From an uncultured Bacilli bacterium (GTDB lineage: Bacteria > Bacillota_I > Bacilli_A > RF39 > UBA660), in assembly GCA_944332295.1 (NCBI GenBank), contig CALVJR010000008.1, positions 1 to 48,816 on the forward strand: 48,816 bases of DNA, in the 5' to 3' direction. This document shows, piece after piece, positions 9,067 through 48,816 of the stretch; position 1 is the stretch's first letter, and each line of letters begins with the position of its first letter. The position numbers and the translations under genes were made by a program. The notes below the pieces were generated by a model. The model saw only the letters and a program-made list of their open reading frames with translations. It was not told the origin of the DNA and ran no database searches.

Positions 9067-9150
9067 GCTCCTTATCATACGGCTTTAGCACCTAATCTAA
9101 TAGGTTGCTGTAGTATCACAGGGCCAGTCCCTCCACTACTCTTTATAAGG
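9067..9150 (-). promoter_or_regulatory. SAM-I (S-box) riboswitch
   Basis: On the minus strand the aptamer reads CCTTATAAAGAGTAGTGGAG, GGACTGGCCCTGTGA, ACTACAGCAACC, AGGTGCTAAAGCC and ends GATAAGGAGC, which pairs with the first bases to close P1. These are the invariant blocks of the S-box. SAM binding favours the terminator at 9038-9066 and shuts off metK. A TATACT -10-like element lies just upstream (9163-9168). Confidence 0.97.
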
Positions 9151-9319
9151 TTTCATATTTATAGTATAGCATATAGATTAAAATTTGTGTGAGCAAATAT
9201 TACTTTTATATCATAACTGATCTTTATATTTTTCTTTGGTATTATAGTATGAGTTTTTTGAATCATACCAATGATACATGCTTATCATTTTTCATTTCTT
9301 AATAATAATTGTAAAAATA

Positions 9320-39548: not shown

Positions 39549-41414
<1,866 letters not shown>

Positions 41415-41419
41415 TTATT

Positions 41420-41471
41420 AAAAAAGAGGAGACAATAGTATCTAGTAAAGTCTAAATACTACTGACTCCTC
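41420..41471 (-). terminator. Intrinsic terminator/attenuator in recombinase leader
   Basis: The minus-strand arm GAGGAGTCAGTAGTAT pairs with ATACTATTGTCTCCTC across a 15-20-nt loop and is followed by TTTTTT, only about 20 nt before the recombinase start. The 5' arm lies inside the leader peptide ORF, so translation would disrupt it. Confidence 0.8.
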
Positions 41472-41519
41472 AATTAATCCAATATTATAAAATTTTTGCT
41501 TATGTATATATTTTTTCAT
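41442..41519 (-). CDS. Leader peptide of the serine recombinase, 25 aa
   Basis: ATG 41517-41519, placed eight bases after GGAGG, opens a 25-codon frame beginning MKKYIHKQKFYN and ending ESVVFRLY before TAG (41442-41444). Its last codons overlap the 5' arm of the terminator hairpin at 41420-41471. This geometry is that of translation-controlled attenuators: a ribosome in the ORF opens the hairpin and allows readthrough into the recombinase gene. It is too short to be found by length and is supported by its ribosome site, the promoter and the overlap. Confidence 0.65.
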   Translation of the reverse strand: MKKYIHKQKFYNIGLIEESVVFRLY

Positions 41520-41563
41520 AGATGTACCTCCATTCTAGAGCATACCTCTTTCATTGGTTATTT

Positions 41564-41608
41564 ATAATATCACTTTTTTATCATTTGTCAATTCCCTGAT
41601 TAGGGAAT
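41564..41608 (-). promoter_or_regulatory. Recombinase promoter with overlapping palindrome
   Basis: Minus-strand TTGACA (41586-41591), 16 nt, TATTAT (41564-41569). A perfect palindrome ATTCCCT/AGGGAAT (41591-41597 and 41602-41608) abuts the -35 box and could be an operator, or the end of the small gene's transcript. Confidence 0.75.
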
Positions 41609-41617
41609 AAATAGTAT

Positions 41618-41890
41618 TTAGATTGTTTTTAAATAATCTTCTAATTCTGATAATTTAATCTTATTTGATAAATTCTCAATAAATATTTCATTAGAATAAT
41701 TAAATGCAAGAAATGTTATATTATTAATTATTATTCTATGTGGCTCAATATAAGTTAAATTGGTTCTATCAATTTTTCTAATACTACCATTGATAATAGT
41801 TGGTTTAGTATTATTAAAATCACATATAAACTCAATTTTCTTTTTAAGTGATTCTTCCAATGAAATTTCTTCTTTAATAATATTTACCAT
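41618..41890 (-). CDS. Small recombinase-associated protein, 90 aa (family copy 2)
   Basis: A 90-residue paralogue of the 30791-31069 product: the same charged N-terminal helix (IKEEISLEESLKKKI), INGSIRKIDRTNLTYIEPHR, a NEIFI strand and NKIKLSELEDYL at the end. It is again placed between a tRNA-His tail plus terminator and a large serine recombinase. The two copies have diverged strongly, more than the recombinase catalytic domains, which suggests element-specific function such as directing excision or repressing the recombinase. This is inference. Confidence 0.7.
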   Translation of the reverse strand: MVNIIKEEISLEESLKKKIEFICDFNNTKPTIINGSIRKIDRTNLTYIEPHRIIINNITFLAFNYSNEIFIENLSNKIKLSELEDYLKTI

Positions 41891-41933
41891 TGTTTCAATC
41901 CTTTCTTTTTAAAGTAGGATAGTTTTTAACAAC

Positions 41934-41962
41934 AAAAAAACTAACCCAAATTTGGATTAGTT
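41934..41962 (-). terminator. Terminator of tRNA-His
   Basis: Minus-strand CTAATCCAAATTTGGGTTAG followed by TTTTTTTGTTG, about 40 nt after the tRNA. A CTCGAACTTTTCGAG hairpin lies between them. Confidence 0.85.
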
Positions 41963-42000
41963 ATTTATCTTAACTCGAAAAGTTCGAGCAGATTTCACAA

Positions 42001-42077
42001 TGGGGCGTCGTAAGGGAATCGAACCCTTGCATACTGGTGCCACAAACCAGCGTGTTAACCACTTCACCAACGACGCC
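42001..42077 (-). tRNA. tRNA-His (GTG anticodon)
   Basis: The minus strand starts GGCGTCGTTGGTGAAGTGG, has the anticodon arm CTGGTTTGTGGCACCAG with GTG, the T-arm GGGTTCGATTCCC and ends ACGACGCCCCA. The extra 5' G (-1) pairs with C73, the tRNA-His identity element, and CCA is encoded. All arms pair. Its 3' end is the presumed integration target of the adjacent elements. Confidence 0.97.
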
Positions 42078-42679: not shown

Positions 42680-43250
42680 TTATACAAAAAGATTACAGTA
42701 TCCTATTAATATTAAAAGAAAAGATTTAGCAATGGCTAAATATTTGGTCACTCAATATGGAGGTTCCAATGGAGAAATGGCTGCTGCACTTCGTTACTTG
42801 AATCAAAGATATACCATGCCTGATAATCGTGGTAAAGCATTACTTACCGATATAGGCACGGAAGAACTTGGTCACGTAGAAATGCTTGCGACGATGATTT
42901 ATCAATTGACAAAAGATGCAACACCTGAGGAGATGAAGCAAGCTGGTCTTGGTAGCAATTTTGCAGAACATGGAAAATCATTATATCCAACAGATGCGAA
43001 TGGTGTTCCATTTACTGTTGCCTACTTTGCCTCAACTGGAGATCCTTTAGCAGACCTTTCAGAAGATATGGCTGCTGAACAAAAAGCTCGTGCTGTTTAC
43101 GAAAACTTAATTGATTTAACTAATGACCCTGATGTGATTGCTCCCTTACTTTGGTTACGTCAAAGAGAAATTGTACATTATGCTAGATTTAAAGAATTAT
43201 TTGAAATGTATGAAAAAGAATTTAAGAATGGGCAAAATCAAAAGATGTAG
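42672..43250 (+). CDS. cotJC: CotJC-type manganese catalase
   Basis: A 192-residue ferritin-like protein. The di-manganese site is visible in YGGSNGEMAAALRYLNQR (Glu), DIGTEELGHVEMLATMI (Glu, His) and the later AAEQKARAVYENLIDLT then LLWLRQREIVHYARFKEL (Glu, Glu, His). This is the complete non-haem catalase core of the CotJC family, a spore-coat component that removes hydrogen peroxide. It is translationally coupled to cotJB. A hairpin containing its own TAG stop terminates transcription. Confidence 0.95.
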   Translation: MFSYTKRLQYPINIKRKDLAMAKYLVTQYGGSNGEMAAALRYLNQRYTMPDNRGKALLTDIGTEELGHVEMLATMIYQLTKDATPEEMKQAGLGSNFAEHGKSLYPTDANGVPFTVAYFASTGDPLADLSEDMAAEQKARAVYENLIDLTNDPDVIAPLLWLRQREIVHYARFKELFEMYEKEFKNGQNQKM

Positions 43251-43271
43251 AATATACGTTCTACATCTTTA
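43241..43271. terminator. Terminator after cotJC (also usable on the minus strand)
   Basis: GATGTAGAA (43244-43252) and TTCTACATC (43259-43267) form a 9-bp stem flanked by AAA and TTTA. It lies between convergent genes. Confidence 0.8.
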
Positions 43272-45149
43272 TTAGTTATACTTTAATTCTTTTACTATTT
43301 TTTTACTTTCTTCTAACATTTCTTCTTTATGAGTGTCTTTGTATACTTGTAATAAATCAATGATATCATATACAGATAGTCTTTCTTTTAAAAATTTTAT
43401 TTCTTTTAATTCATTATCATTTTCTATTATGATTGGCATTAAATCCTGATAATCTTCTTCTGTTGTTAGCATATCTGTTTTTGAGGATGCCCAACGCCAT
43501 GGAACTTTTTTATATCTATTTAATATTCTAAAATCATAATCTATAGGTGCTGACATAGAATATTCAAAATCTAATAATGTAAGACGATTATCTTGATAAA
43601 TAATATTATCAAAGTGTAAGTCACCATGAATCTGGCCAAATTTATTTTCTTTAAAATAGATATCACATAGTGATAATAATTCATCAAACAACTCATCTGT
43701 AATATTACTTTCTTTTATAAGATTTCTTATTTTATCTTTAATAAAGTTATTAAAATCATATTCTTCTACTTTTTTACTATGAAATGGCTGTAATACATTG
43801 ATTAATTTTAAAATAATTCCTTTTCTTTCATCTTCTGTTAATTTATACCATACTTCATAAAGTGTAGGGCCTTCTACTTTTTCTAATACCTCATAATTAT
43901 AAGAAATTAATTCTTTGGTTTTATCTGCGATATATAATTTGGGAATATTAGTGCTTTTATTATTTTGATAAAAGTCTATTTCATGTTCAAACCTTTTTTC
44001 GTTTTCTTTTTTTGTACAAATTCTTACTATATAATCTTCTACTTGATATATGGTATTGGTAAATCCCGCGGTTATTTTGTTATAGTTTTTCCCTTTTAAA
44101 AAGGGTGTGTTTTCTATAATCTTTTCTATTTCTTTGTCGAAAGATTGCTCTTCTGTTGTGATTAATCCATCAATAATATCATCCATGGTTCCAATTAATT
44201 CTAAATATCTAGAAATTTCTTCTATTGTCTTTGATACTTCTTGCTCTCCTAAAGATTTTTCTTCTTCCTCATTCGTAATTATTCCTAGACTTCGTTCTAA
44301 ATTATATTTTAACCATTCAAATCTTCCAACTAAGTTTCCACAGATAGCATCATACCAGTCAATACTTTTAATATCTCTTAATTTTTGATACTCTAAAAAT
44401 ACGGCTTTGAATTTTTCTTCACTAAAGTTGTTTGTTAAAAAACCAGACCAAGAAAGAGCTGTTTCTAATAATTCTTGATAAGGGTTTGCTAGGGTTACGG
44501 ACTCCCAATCGATAATTATAGGATTATCTTGATTCCACATTACATTTTTAGGATCCATATCTCTATGGCAAATCATTGATACAGTATTTGCGTCATTAAA
44601 TCTTTCATTTGCTCTTTTTAAGATTGAATTATATTTTTTATAGTTTTTTAAATATTCCTCTCTGTAAGACATTTTGTTAAAATTTACTTCTAACGCATAA
44701 CCTTCCCAGTCATATAATCTTTTATATTCTACTCTTTCTTCTGTTAATCCTAATTTTTGGTAATCTAGATTATGAATCCTAGCAAGTACTTTTCCAATTT
44801 TTTTACAATGTTCTACTGTAATTTCTTCATCAGATAATGTTTTTCCTTCTATATAATCAAATACCATATAATAAGTATTTTTAAATTCTGTTAGGTAGTT
44901 TCCATCTATAGAGATGGCGCTAGATACCGAAATATTATTTTCTTTCGCTAGGTTGGCTATTTTTTCTGATACTACAAAATTGTTATAGGCATCTTCTCTA
45001 TTCATTACTTCCCTATTTAGTACTTTTATAGCGTAAGTTGCTGTTGTAGTTTTTACTTTAAACATTCTATGCATTAGACCACCAGATAATTTTTCTATAT
45101 CTATTACTGTTCCTAAGTTGTATTTTGCACAGAAATCTTCTATATTCAT
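43272..45149 (-). CDS. Double APH/choline-kinase-like phosphotransferase
   Basis: A 625-residue protein made of two complete kinase-like domains. The first (about 1-315) has IEKLSGGLMHRMFKV, AIKVLNRE (Lys), MICHRDMDPKNVMW (catalytic Asp, Asn) and IIIDWES. The second (about 345-625) has KITAGFTNTIYQV, QIHGDLHFDNIIYQ and LTLLDFEYS. Both keep the Brenner and DFG-like residues, so both may be active. Relatives phosphorylate aminoglycosides, choline, or sugars and nucleosides. It is the last gene of the operon with the AAC(6')-APH(2'')-like enzyme, so a drug-modifying role is possible. The tandem arrangement is unusual; the substrate is unknown. Confidence 0.85.
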   Translation of the reverse strand: MNIEDFCAKYNLGTVIDIEKLSGGLMHRMFKVKTTTATYAIKVLNREVMNREDAYNNFVVSEKIANLAKENNISVSSAISIDGNYLTEFKNTYYMVFDYIEGKTLSDEEITVEHCKKIGKVLARIHNLDYQKLGLTEERVEYKRLYDWEGYALEVNFNKMSYREEYLKNYKKYNSILKRANERFNDANTVSMICHRDMDPKNVMWNQDNPIIIDWESVTLANPYQELLETALSWSGFLTNNFSEEKFKAVFLEYQKLRDIKSIDWYDAICGNLVGRFEWLKYNLERSLGIITNEEEEKSLGEQEVSKTIEEISRYLELIGTMDDIIDGLITTEEQSFDKEIEKIIENTPFLKGKNYNKITAGFTNTIYQVEDYIVRICTKKENEKRFEHEIDFYQNNKSTNIPKLYIADKTKELISYNYEVLEKVEGPTLYEVWYKLTEDERKGIILKLINVLQPFHSKKVEEYDFNNFIKDKIRNLIKESNITDELFDELLSLCDIYFKENKFGQIHGDLHFDNIIYQDNRLTLLDFEYSMSAPIDYDFRILNRYKKVPWRWASSKTDMLTTEEDYQDLMPIIIENDNELKEIKFLKERLSVYDIIDLLQVYKDTHKEEMLEESKKIVKELKYN

Positions 45150-45163
45150 GTTATCACGTCCTT

Positions 45164-46003
45164 TTATTCTACAATTACTTTTCCATCAATATTACATATA
45201 TAACAATCTTTTAATTTCTCTTTGATATGTTTTAGAGCGTTTTTATCTTGTTCTATTTTTCTTCCTACTAATACTCCTTCAATTAAAGTAGAGGGTAATC
45301 CAAACATAATAGCAGATTCTCTATCTGTTGTCGATGCATCTTTATTAAATCTTAACTCTAAAAATTTTGAATAATAGCGATAATCTAGGAATTCTTTTAA
45401 TGTTTCTTCGTCTAACTCTGTATTCCAAACATTTGCTTTTATCATTTCTTTTGCATAATCACTTTCCATATTTAAAATAAAAGCAATCTGTCTTTTATCT
45501 GATACTAGACTTGGTAAAAATGTTACTTCTTTTGTCTTTTCTGCCCAATAAGTCCAAATATTTTCATCATTATTTATCTTTTCCGTTTCTTCATCAAATT
45601 TATGATATGGAATCATTTTAGATACTTCTTTCGAACCTGGTCCTCTACCAATAGTATAAGTAATTGTTACTCCACTGTAATTAATAATATAATCTTTTAG
45701 TAAAATATCTTCTTGTATATTCCACATACCAATACTATTTTTTATTTTATTTTTACCTTCACTATTTCCTGTAAAATCAATTGCAACAAAGCCATGTTCT
45801 ACTATCCAATCAAAATTATCTAGTAATCCAGGTATTCCATGCATATAGGTTCCTTTCTTTAGTTTTACTTCTTCTCCTACATGATATTTGTTTTTCTTTA
45901 TTTCTTTCTTCTCATAAAAAAGCTCGATATTGTTTAATACTAATTCTAAGGCTTTGCCTTGAAAGGTCTTTTTTGCATATTCTATGTATTTTTCTTTATT
46001 CAT
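45164..46003 (-). CDS. Hypothetical protein in the aminoglycoside-type operon, 279 aa
   Basis: I do not recognise the family. The 279-residue soluble protein has conserved-looking blocks: GEEVKLKKGTYMHGIPGLLD, NFDWIVEHGFVAIDFTG, VTITYTIGRGPGSKEVSKMI and STTDRESAIMFGLPSTLIEG then VLVGRKIE. The Gly/His-rich first block and the TDRE..GLPS.LIEG.LVGR block look like ligand- or nucleotide-handling loops, somewhat reminiscent of ADP-ribosyl-type folds, but this is not firm. It sits 7 nt after the AAC-APH gene and 14 nt before the double kinase, so it is made with them. Confidence 0.6.
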   Translation of the reverse strand: MNKEKYIEYAKKTFQGKALELVLNNIELFYEKKEIKKNKYHVGEEVKLKKGTYMHGIPGLLDNFDWIVEHGFVAIDFTGNSEGKNKIKNSIGMWNIQEDILLKDYIINYSGVTITYTIGRGPGSKEVSKMIPYHKFDEETEKINNDENIWTYWAEKTKEVTFLPSLVSDKRQIAFILNMESDYAKEMIKANVWNTELDEETLKEFLDYRYYSKFLELRFNKDASTTDRESAIMFGLPSTLIEGVLVGRKIEQDKNALKHIKEKLKDCYICNIDGKVIVE

Positions 46004-46010
46004 AATTATC

Positions 46011-47474
<1,464 letters not shown>

Positions 47475-47541
47475 TTATTTCACCAACCATCTTTAATTTT
47501 TTATTTCCAAAATTATACTTATCTATTTAATTTACTTCTTT

Positions 47542-48057
47542 TTACAATTCTATTTTTACAATTACCCCTTCTACTTCTTTATTGAACTTTTTCCAAGTAG
47601 TTTTTTCTATTACTTTAAATCCTACACTTTCGAATACTTTTAATGTATTTTCTCTATCTATTTCAAAAGTATCATATAGACTTTTAATGCCTTATTTTTT
47701 TGCATAATTACTTAGTAGTTTTAATCCTTCTTTGGCATAGCCATTTCTTCTTTTTGATTTTTCTATTATAATACCACATTCATACCTATTATCTTTTTCA
47801 TTATATTGATAGTTTACATATCCTACAAACTCATTTTTTATATCGTCTTTTAAATAAGCAAAAAAAGTATTTTTTTCTTTTCTTTTATTAAATTTTTCTT
47901 GCCATTTTTCTTCTTTAAAATCAATGCATCCTGTTTCGTAATGATATCCAGAATATGATACATCATATCCGGCATTATAATTCATAGTATCTTTATCGCT
48001 TAATAAATTTTCTTCATACCAATAATCTTTTAACTCTGGAATATATAAACTTAACAT
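47542..48057 (-). pseudogene. GNAT acetyltransferase interrupted by in-frame TAA
   Basis: The frame from ATG 48055-48057 encodes a GNAT protein with KNEFVGYVNYQYNEKDNRYE then CGIIIEKSKRRNGYAKEGLK (acetyl-CoA loop RRNGYA) and LLSNYAKK, then meets TAA at 47692-47694 (codon 122). The same frame continues GIKSLYDTFEIDRENTLKVF, ESVGFKVIEKTTWKKF and ends at TAA 47542-47544, giving a normal GNAT length of about 171. No frameshift is needed. The 121-residue product would lack the last helix and strands. The gene lies 3 nt after the first GNAT gene. Confidence 0.8.
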
Positions 48058-48060
48058 ATC

Positions 48061-48528
48061 TTACCTTTTAAAACTAAATATTCCGTCCTTAAAATCATTA
48101 TTTTTATCGGTATATTCATCGATTACTCTTTTCCAAAAATTATAAGCTATTTCGTTTCCTTTTGATGGTGATACTTCCCAGGCTCCTTGATATAAATCAA
48201 AACACATAAAAGCTACTTTTTTTCCTATCTTATTTCTTCTATATTTAGGAATTACCATAAATTCTGCAATACTATGTCCTTTTTTTGTGTGCTGCATATA
48301 AGTATTAATCATGACAAATCCTAATAGTTTATTTGATTCTTGTTTTCTAATAAAAAAGGCATCTCTATTGTTATCTGTAAAATAATTATCAAAATATTTG
48401 TATTCAAATATGGCATTCTCGTTCATTTCATTACCATCTGTTAGACTTTCTTCAAATAAAGAATATTCTAGTAATCTATACAAGGTATCTTTTTTATCTA
48501 TTTCTACTCTTTCTAATTTTATATTCAT
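48061..48528 (-). CDS. GNAT-family acetyltransferase
   Basis: A 155-residue acetyltransferase. FVMINTYMQHTKKGHSIAEF then MVIPKYRRNKIGKKVAFMCF holds the strand 4/acetyl-CoA pyrophosphate loop (RRNKIGK), and EVSPSKGNEIAYNFWKRVID the conserved C-terminal helix (N.IAYNFW). ATG 48526-48528 follows GGAGGAG; an in-frame ATG seven codons earlier covers the ribosome site itself and is rejected. Relatives acetylate small amines or antibiotics. It is the first gene of the operon with the broken GNAT, AAC-APH, an unknown protein and the double kinase, under an attenuator. Confidence 0.85.
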   Translation of the reverse strand: MNIKLERVEIDKKDTLYRLLEYSLFEESLTDGNEMNENAIFEYKYFDNYFTDNNRDAFFIRKQESNKLLGFVMINTYMQHTKKGHSIAEFMVIPKYRRNKIGKKVAFMCFDLYQGAWEVSPSKGNEIAYNFWKRVIDEYTDKNNDFKDGIFSFKR

Positions 48529-48547
48529 TTTATCTCCTCCTATAAAC

Positions 48548-48572
48548 AAAAAGACTCTCTAAATAGAGAGTC
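48548..48572 (-). terminator. Attenuator terminator before the GNAT operon
   Basis: Minus-strand GACTCTC TATTTA GAGAGTC then TTTTTG. It lies 20 nt before the GNAT start and downstream of the leader ORF. Confidence 0.9.
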
Positions 48573-48574
48573 CC

Positions 48575-48617
48575 ATCACACTAAAAAATATTTTTATACG
48601 ATTAAAAGAAGTGTGAT
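48575..48617 (-). promoter_or_regulatory. Antiterminator-type hairpin of the attenuator
   Basis: ATCACACT (minus 48617-48610) pairs with AGTGTGAT (48582-48575). The pairing can extend from GAG upstream to CTC of the terminator's 5' arm, so the two hairpins exclude each other. The upstream arm is inside the leader ORF. Confidence 0.65.
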
Positions 48618-48674
48618 TTCTCCACTATTTATTCTATTGATATTATTGTTCTTCATTAATTTTATCATGTCCAT
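48594..48674 (-). CDS. Leader peptide of the GNAT/AAC-APH operon
   Basis: A short ORF with ATG at 48672-48674 (or 48675-48677, or 48666-48668) after AAAGGAG. It begins MDMIKLMKNNNINRIN, ends ITLLLIV and stops at TAA 48594-48596. The codons for EITLL form the upstream arm of the antiterminator. When a ribosome reaches the end it should mask that arm and allow termination; a stalled ribosome should free it and permit expression. The arrangement matches erm(K)/bmr-type antibiotic-sensing attenuators in concept. The size and role are inferred from the geometry. Confidence 0.7.
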   Translation of the reverse strand: MDMIKLMKNNNINRINSGEITLLLIV

Positions 48675-48696
48675 CATACTCCTTTCTTTTGGCAAT

Positions 48697-48724
48697 ATTA
48701 TACCTTATATTTTTGTTTTGTCAA
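48697..48724 (-). promoter_or_regulatory. Consensus promoter of the GNAT/AAC-APH operon
   Basis: Minus-strand TTGACA (48719-48724), 16 nt, TATAAT (48697-48702): both hexamers perfect. Confidence 0.9.
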
Positions 48725-48757
48725 CTACTCTACGGTAACATGTTAATCCTTTTTTAA

Positions 48758-48798
48758 AATGTCACCATATCATTAATAGAAATGTCACCAGCATTAAT
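48758..48798 (+). repeat. Tandem direct repeats near right edge
   Basis: AATGTCACCATATCATTAAT (48758-48777) and AATGTCACCA-G-CATTAAT (48781-48798). Closely spaced GGTGACATT repeats are seen at the ends of some insertion sequences, so a mobile-element end may lie just right of the window; not provable here. Confidence 0.5.
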
Positions 48799-48816
48799 AT
48801 ATAATATCTCTTTGGA

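Follow-up and report, generated by a model that had tools for sequence, protein, structure and literature searches.

A candidate ribosome-controlled attenuator with its own Shine-Dalgarno region as a pairing arm, upstream of an AAC(6')-APH(2'') operon in uncultured Bacilli

Most of the inducible attenuators known so far respond to drugs, such as macrolides and lincosamides, by which ribosomes are stalled at particular peptides. In the vmlR leader of Bacillus subtilis a ribosome stalled at the start of an upstream ORF (uORF) prevents formation of an anti-antiterminator, and the antiterminator then permits readthrough into the resistance gene (PMC9226507). According to an eLife study, start-codon stalling is likely for the inducers of the cplR, vmlR and vga(A) leaders (PMC12121999). 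The toiL uORF of E. coli (topAI-yjhQ) senses several drugs by the position of the ribosome, including start-codon stalling by tetracycline and retapamulin; gentamicin and amikacin gave no induction at the doses tested (PMC12121999). Listeria leaders of the hflXr (rli80)/Lmo0919 type have a short ORF that overlaps the anti-anti-terminator, and a terminator ahead of a gene for resistance to ribosome-targeting drugs (PMC6310831). For aminoglycoside-modifying enzymes, control at the RNA level has been proposed before, as the 'aminoglycoside riboswitch' of integron aac/aad genes, for which direct drug binding was suggested and later rejected by experiment (PMC9410878).

The leader described here resembles vmlR in its predicted logic, in that there a start-proximal uORF governs anti-antiterminator, antiterminator and terminator helices (PMC9226507). 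What sets it apart is that the vmlR uORF has three codons and a single-stranded Shine-Dalgarno sequence (SD), whereas here the SD itself is the anti-antiterminator arm and the ORF has 18-25 codons, and that vmlR encodes an ABC-F protein whereas the genes here encode drug-modifying or related enzymes. toiL governs translation and Rho termination, in contrast to the intrinsic terminator found here. The PA5471.1 system of Pseudomonas governs an anti-repressor for efflux. Attenuation through the PA5471.1 leader peptide (MexXY regulation) is tied to aminoglycosides and other ribosome stress, although its sequence and host are unrelated (PMC13041342, PMC12057347). In the open-access literature searched no report of leaders of the present types was found.

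The window, by which is meant the whole 48,816-nucleotide stretch analysed, from an uncultured Bacilli bacterium, carries the leader on its minus strand (Table 1). Promoter, short SD-bearing ORF, intrinsic terminator and gene follow one another in that order. A sequence-only reading of this DNA had pointed to a promoter of perfect consensus, a short ORF that has a ribosome site of its own, a hairpin whose 5' arm is coded by that ORF and an intrinsic terminator, all before an aminoglycoside-type operon, and each of these elements is present: TTGACA lies at 48724-48719 and TATAAT at 48702-48697, the SD GAAAGGAG at 48686-48679, and the repeat as ATCACACT at 48617-48610, inside the ORF, and AGTGTGAT at 48582-48575. 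The leader promoter is the sole 12/12 match within 43200-48816, promoter-like matches overall being no more frequent than in shuffles, and terminator-like sites in the region number 4 versus 0.8 in shuffles. An in-frame ATG at 48677, upstream of the start of the window's leader ORF, is lacking in the relatives.

Table 1. Coordinates of the leader elements and of the genes that follow them in the window.
Feature	Position	Strand	Remark
Promoter TTGACA-N16-TATAAT	48697..48724	(-)	12/12 consensus match
R1, leader Shine-Dalgarno region GAAAGGAGTATGAT (relatives: GAAAGGAGTGTGAT)	48673..48686	(-)	anti-antiterminator 5' arm
Leader ORF, 24 codons, MIKLMKNNNINRINSGEITLLLIV then stop	48594..48668	(-)	open in every leader examined
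Antiterminator 5' arm AAATAGTGGAGAAATCACACT, includes R2 start	48610..48630	(-)	pairs with 48582-48561
R2, ATCACACTTCTTTT, 3' part of ORF, complementary to R1	48604..48617	(-)	
Antiterminator 3' arm AGTGTGATGGGACTCTCTATTT, R3 plus terminator 5' arm and loop	48561..48582	(-)	
Intrinsic terminator GACTCTCT-ATTT-AGAGAGTC-TTTTT	48548..48572	(-)	-13.0 kcal/mol
GNAT 1, first operon gene, SD AGGAGGAG	48061..48528	(-)	PF00583, 1e-7
GNAT 2, in-frame TAA (codon 122) in window only	47544..48057	(-)	intact in L005, L006, L007
Bifunctional AAC(6')-Ie/APH(2'')-Ia-type enzyme	46011..47474	(-)	NF033692 554.6 bits, NF033693 346.7 bits, both over cut-off
279-aa protein of unknown function	45164..46003	(-)	leader directly before it in G013
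Tandem APH-fold protein, 625 aa	43272..45149	(-)	PF01636, 2 stretches

The bifunctional AAC(6')-APH(2'') gene was thus confirmed within the operon, and its product shows 78-79% identity to the clinical Staphylococcus/Enterococcus plasmid enzyme. The operon order is retained, with extra genes and behind glmS, in loci L005 and L006, and L007 has the operon without AAC-APH. Proteins of approximately 97% identity to the bifunctional enzyme were seen in two related Bacilli MAGs; related Bacilli are a possible natural reservoir of AAC(6')-APH(2''). A large serine recombinase adjoining a tRNA-His gene (39549-42076) lies near the resistance-like operon and possibly marks a mobile-element border. At the other side (48741-48816) the contig stops within the terminal repeat belonging to an insertion element with TGTCACC-type repeats, which has a DDE/integrase-like ORF in L003 and further copies in C56 and C23, and which has inserted where, in relatives, the glmS-bearing region has its 3' end. 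The C56 copy was considered as the other half of the window site and rejected, being a separate insertion beside tRNA-like sequence.

The hairpin had been taken to disrupt the terminator, and on this point the sequence-only reading has to be amended. As drawn, its 8 bp do not overlap the terminator and give no thermodynamic displacement of it in the window's clade. Disruption requires an extended pairing of AAATAG.GGAG (48630-48620) with CTCTCTATTT (48570-48561), so that the competing long pairing is AAATAG-GGAG-AUCACACU with AGUGUGAU-CUCU-CUAUUU. The key segment had also been overlooked: R2 is complementary to R1, the SD region of the very ORF in which it lies. In the window the R1:ORF duplex has -9.0 kcal/mol (p=0.010) and the ORF:terminator-arm duplex -17.1 kcal/mol (p=0.004), both against dinucleotide shuffles.

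These segments suggest the following switch. R1 and R2 would pair as an anti-antiterminator, the terminator would form and the operon would be off. During normal translation the ribosome would reach R2 and the stop codon, R2 would stay covered and transcription would again terminate. If a ribosome is held on the start codon or within the first few codons, it would instead cover R1, leaving R2 and the bases upstream of it to pair with the terminator 5' arm and loop, with readthrough into the operon. Since the leader's own SD serves as the anti-antiterminator arm, it is the occupancy of the leader start codon that would be sensed, and the signal would be ribosomes stuck there, as expected with many translation inhibitors, and not a drug-specific arrest peptide. 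We consider it likely that the leader belongs to a recurring type of ribosome-controlled transcription attenuator built on three helices.

That the type recurs came from a search for relatives that used the GNAT protein as query and then the leader. The initial set comprised seven leaders: that of the window, five from further genomes in its genus and one from a different genus. The closest relatives whose contigs are named come from uncultured Bacilli MAGs. A relative in another genus stands directly before an APH(2'')-like gene, and in G045 the leader precedes one that is kinase-like. A covariance model of the seven leaders gave matches, some of them by chance, in 30 of 386 family genomes at E<=0.05, and covariance models extended the relatives to more than 20 genera of the same family. 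Type I leaders, with the tail NSG-[EL]-I-[TA]-LLL, precede APH, APH(2'')-like, kinase-like and other genes. Type II leaders (MKNLQ-INNAELITTP) mostly precede a protein with an ASCH-like N-terminus, assigned by eye, and a cytidine deaminase, the one domain that Pfam gave. This arrangement was noted at L041, L043, L045, L049, L050, L052, L055, L059, L062, L065, L066 and L072, and the deaminase domain matches blasticidin-S deaminase weakly. A model of type II alone, with matches in 26 of the 372 genomes of the family (E<=0.01), recovers the window leader as the only match in its genome (E=5.1e-5) and therefore provides independent support for homology. Type III occurs in two other Bacilli families as GGAGTTGATTACT ... 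AGTAATCAAAACCTTT ... CACTTCTAATTTA followed by a terminator, and precedes HTH/GNAT proteins and an ABC-type ATPase; the predicted ABC-class ATPase follows the leader at L101, L102 and L103, and second copies in the same genomes stand before HTH-GNAT-GNAT fusions. Single divergent leaders, L056 and L057, precede ABC transporters. The downstream genes are thus APH/AAC, GNAT, cytidine-deaminase, ABC-transporter and ATPase genes, mostly of drug-modification types. L089 resembles a type II leader that has decayed. Several matches with 2-3 mismatches from the first pattern search (L024-L027) and the weak covariance-model matches L046, L047, L053, L058, L063, L064, L069, L091, L100 and L104 were set aside as chance, the latter by sequence and context. 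Plasmid and phage collections searched at low stringency held no real match, two viral-contig matches lying inside coding sequence being rejected as chance.

The pairings themselves are conserved. In 35 of 35 leaders both complementarities, R1:ORF and ORF:terminator arm, reach p<=0.05 against dinucleotide shuffles, and p<=0.01 is reached by 31 and 29 of the 35, respectively; because of relatedness the leaders within a type are not independent cases, but the same pairings are built from different sequences in types I, II and III. Covariation in homologous loci had been put forward as a check by the sequence-only reading, and it is seen in the type II helices, whereas the type I alignment, of which the window is a member, varies too little to be informative. 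In type II, 97.8% pairing is found across the anti-antiterminator and terminator helices, where 3 pairs have changed on both sides; for the antiterminator the figures are 93.9% and 4, and shuffles give a mean of 0.5 such pairs. The covariation score exceeds 500 of 500 shuffles for both structures. That antiterminator and terminator are mutually exclusive is supported by the complementarity in the window and by this covariation. Across the seven initial leaders most of the outer pairs of the antiterminator are invariant.

Constrained folding predicts switching in most leaders of other genera, with P(terminator) of approximately 0.9 when free, approximately 0 with the start masked and approximately 0.9 with the stop masked, and this result exceeds nearly all of 100 shuffles. 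A codon-by-codon ribosome folding map places the predicted ON window of the relatives at codons 1-3 or 4, where a vmlR-like start stall would act. Switching is partial at L040, L043-L045 and L060, because the antiterminator wins there also at the stop, and is barely predicted at L057 and L067. For the window and its five closest leaders no such switching is predicted by thermodynamics: P(terminator) is approximately 0.95 at every ribosome position, the antiterminator being 6-8 kcal/mol less stable than a terminator of about -13 kcal/mol. The terminator wins in every state, and any switching in this clade must therefore be kinetic. When folded without constraints, the 151-nt leader has only a moderate advantage over shuffles (z=-1.97). 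Folding of the RNA, another of the checks suggested earlier, bears out the extended antiterminator, since the MFE fold of a window transcript ending before the terminator 3' arm is exactly this structure, but once complete the terminator wins.

The window's own copy is accordingly the weakest-supported member of the leader class, and one reading, to which we give some tentative credence, is that the leader of its clade is a relic, weak or in decay: it would be a homologue of attenuators that work elsewhere, but would by now act chiefly as a strong terminator through which some transcription leaks. The dominance of the terminator in all predicted states is in agreement with this, as is the lack of visible peptide-level selection and a G-to-A change in R1, carried by the window alone among its clade, which weakens R1:R2 relative to L010 (-15.2 kcal/mol, p=0.002). 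The leader is also lost in the sister loci L013 and L014 although homologous GNATs stay, L013 retaining the terminator without a leader ORF. The missing leader at these two loci and the lack of the promoter in L012 count against the attenuator reading. Against decay, however, L010, L011, L015 and L033 (G004, G011, G006 and G013) keep the promoter, an open ORF, R2 and the arms of the antiterminator despite approximately 18% divergence at leader codons 2-13, and the antiterminator is the MFE fold until the terminator 3' arm has been transcribed, so that kinetic control may still operate. The window's copy may be kinetically controlled, weak or decaying.

A drug-specific attenuator of the ErmCL or RLR type, in which the nascent peptide stalls the ribosome with an aminoglycoside or other drug, is unlikely. 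A short SD-bearing ORF, a terminator and resistance-type genes downstream would suit it, and so would a second ON window near the type II C-terminal codons and a pairwise dN/dS of 0.19 at type II codons 2-8. The type II N-terminus may thus carry an added peptide-level constraint, but the distinct-change test (4 synonymous versus 7, p=0.13) is not significant. In type I, however, dN/dS is approximately 1.0 at codons 2-13, outside the paired region, and this lack of peptide conservation argues against a drug-specific arrest peptide. Variation in the NSGEITLLL tail is equal at synonymous (0.149) and nonsynonymous (0.155) sites, as expected for RNA pairing, and the tail is therefore conserved as RNA. 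The ORF is open in all leaders examined, the peptide sequence is not conserved, and in types I and II the distance from ATG to R2 varies by whole codons, an indirect sign that the ORF is translated with no particular peptide being needed. Neither an RLR nor an IAVV-type motif, as in Erm-type arrest, was seen in the leader peptides, unlike rli80, which encodes the RLR macrolide-arrest motif. Peptide-specific arrest is not known for aminoglycosides. Of the erm(K), bmr and vmlR logic invoked by the sequence-only reading, the architecture of a ribosome-controlled attenuator is supported, while arrest selection on the peptide is not seen.

It is similarly improbable that the hairpin is a plain glmS terminator beside a constitutive operon promoter, with no regulation. 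glmS does end immediately upstream of TTGACA in L010 and L011, and L013 has a terminator there, but since the promoter precedes the terminator, transcription can reach the operon only by reading through the latter, and relatives in other contexts (L034, L038-L042, type II, type III) show the same R1/R2/terminator complementarity. Leucine attenuation through the three consecutive codons CTT CTT TTA of the window leader can be dismissed as very improbable, since the Leu run is R2 and fixed by pairing (relatives carry LSL, LFL or TTP), a stall there leads to termination in the folding map and the downstream genes are not biosynthetic. An aminoglycoside-binding riboswitch was also rejected, as an Rfam scan of the window listed no leader family and pairing of the SD, R2 and the terminator accounts for the bases that are conserved. 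The window does contain a SAM riboswitch at 9069-9151 on the minus strand (RF00162, 64.6 bits).

A wider proposal, which we judge to be evenly balanced, is that uncultured Bacilli possess a widespread, undescribed class of leaders whose own SD is the anti-antiterminator arm, which sense start-codon occupancy independently of the peptide and switch on enzymes modifying aminoglycosides, nucleoside antibiotics or toxins of that kind, among them an AAC(6')-APH(2'') near in sequence to the clinical one. Induction of the present operon by aminoglycosides is a plausible inference. No such leader is known for the clinical AAC(6')-Ie-APH(2'')-Ia gene, and the proposal, if true, suggests that environmental relatives of this enzyme are regulated. 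It would also extend inducible RNA control to further drug classes, through start-codon sensing before aminoglycoside- and nucleoside-modifying enzymes, and the leader could then mark unrecognised resistance genes in uncultured gut Bacilli.
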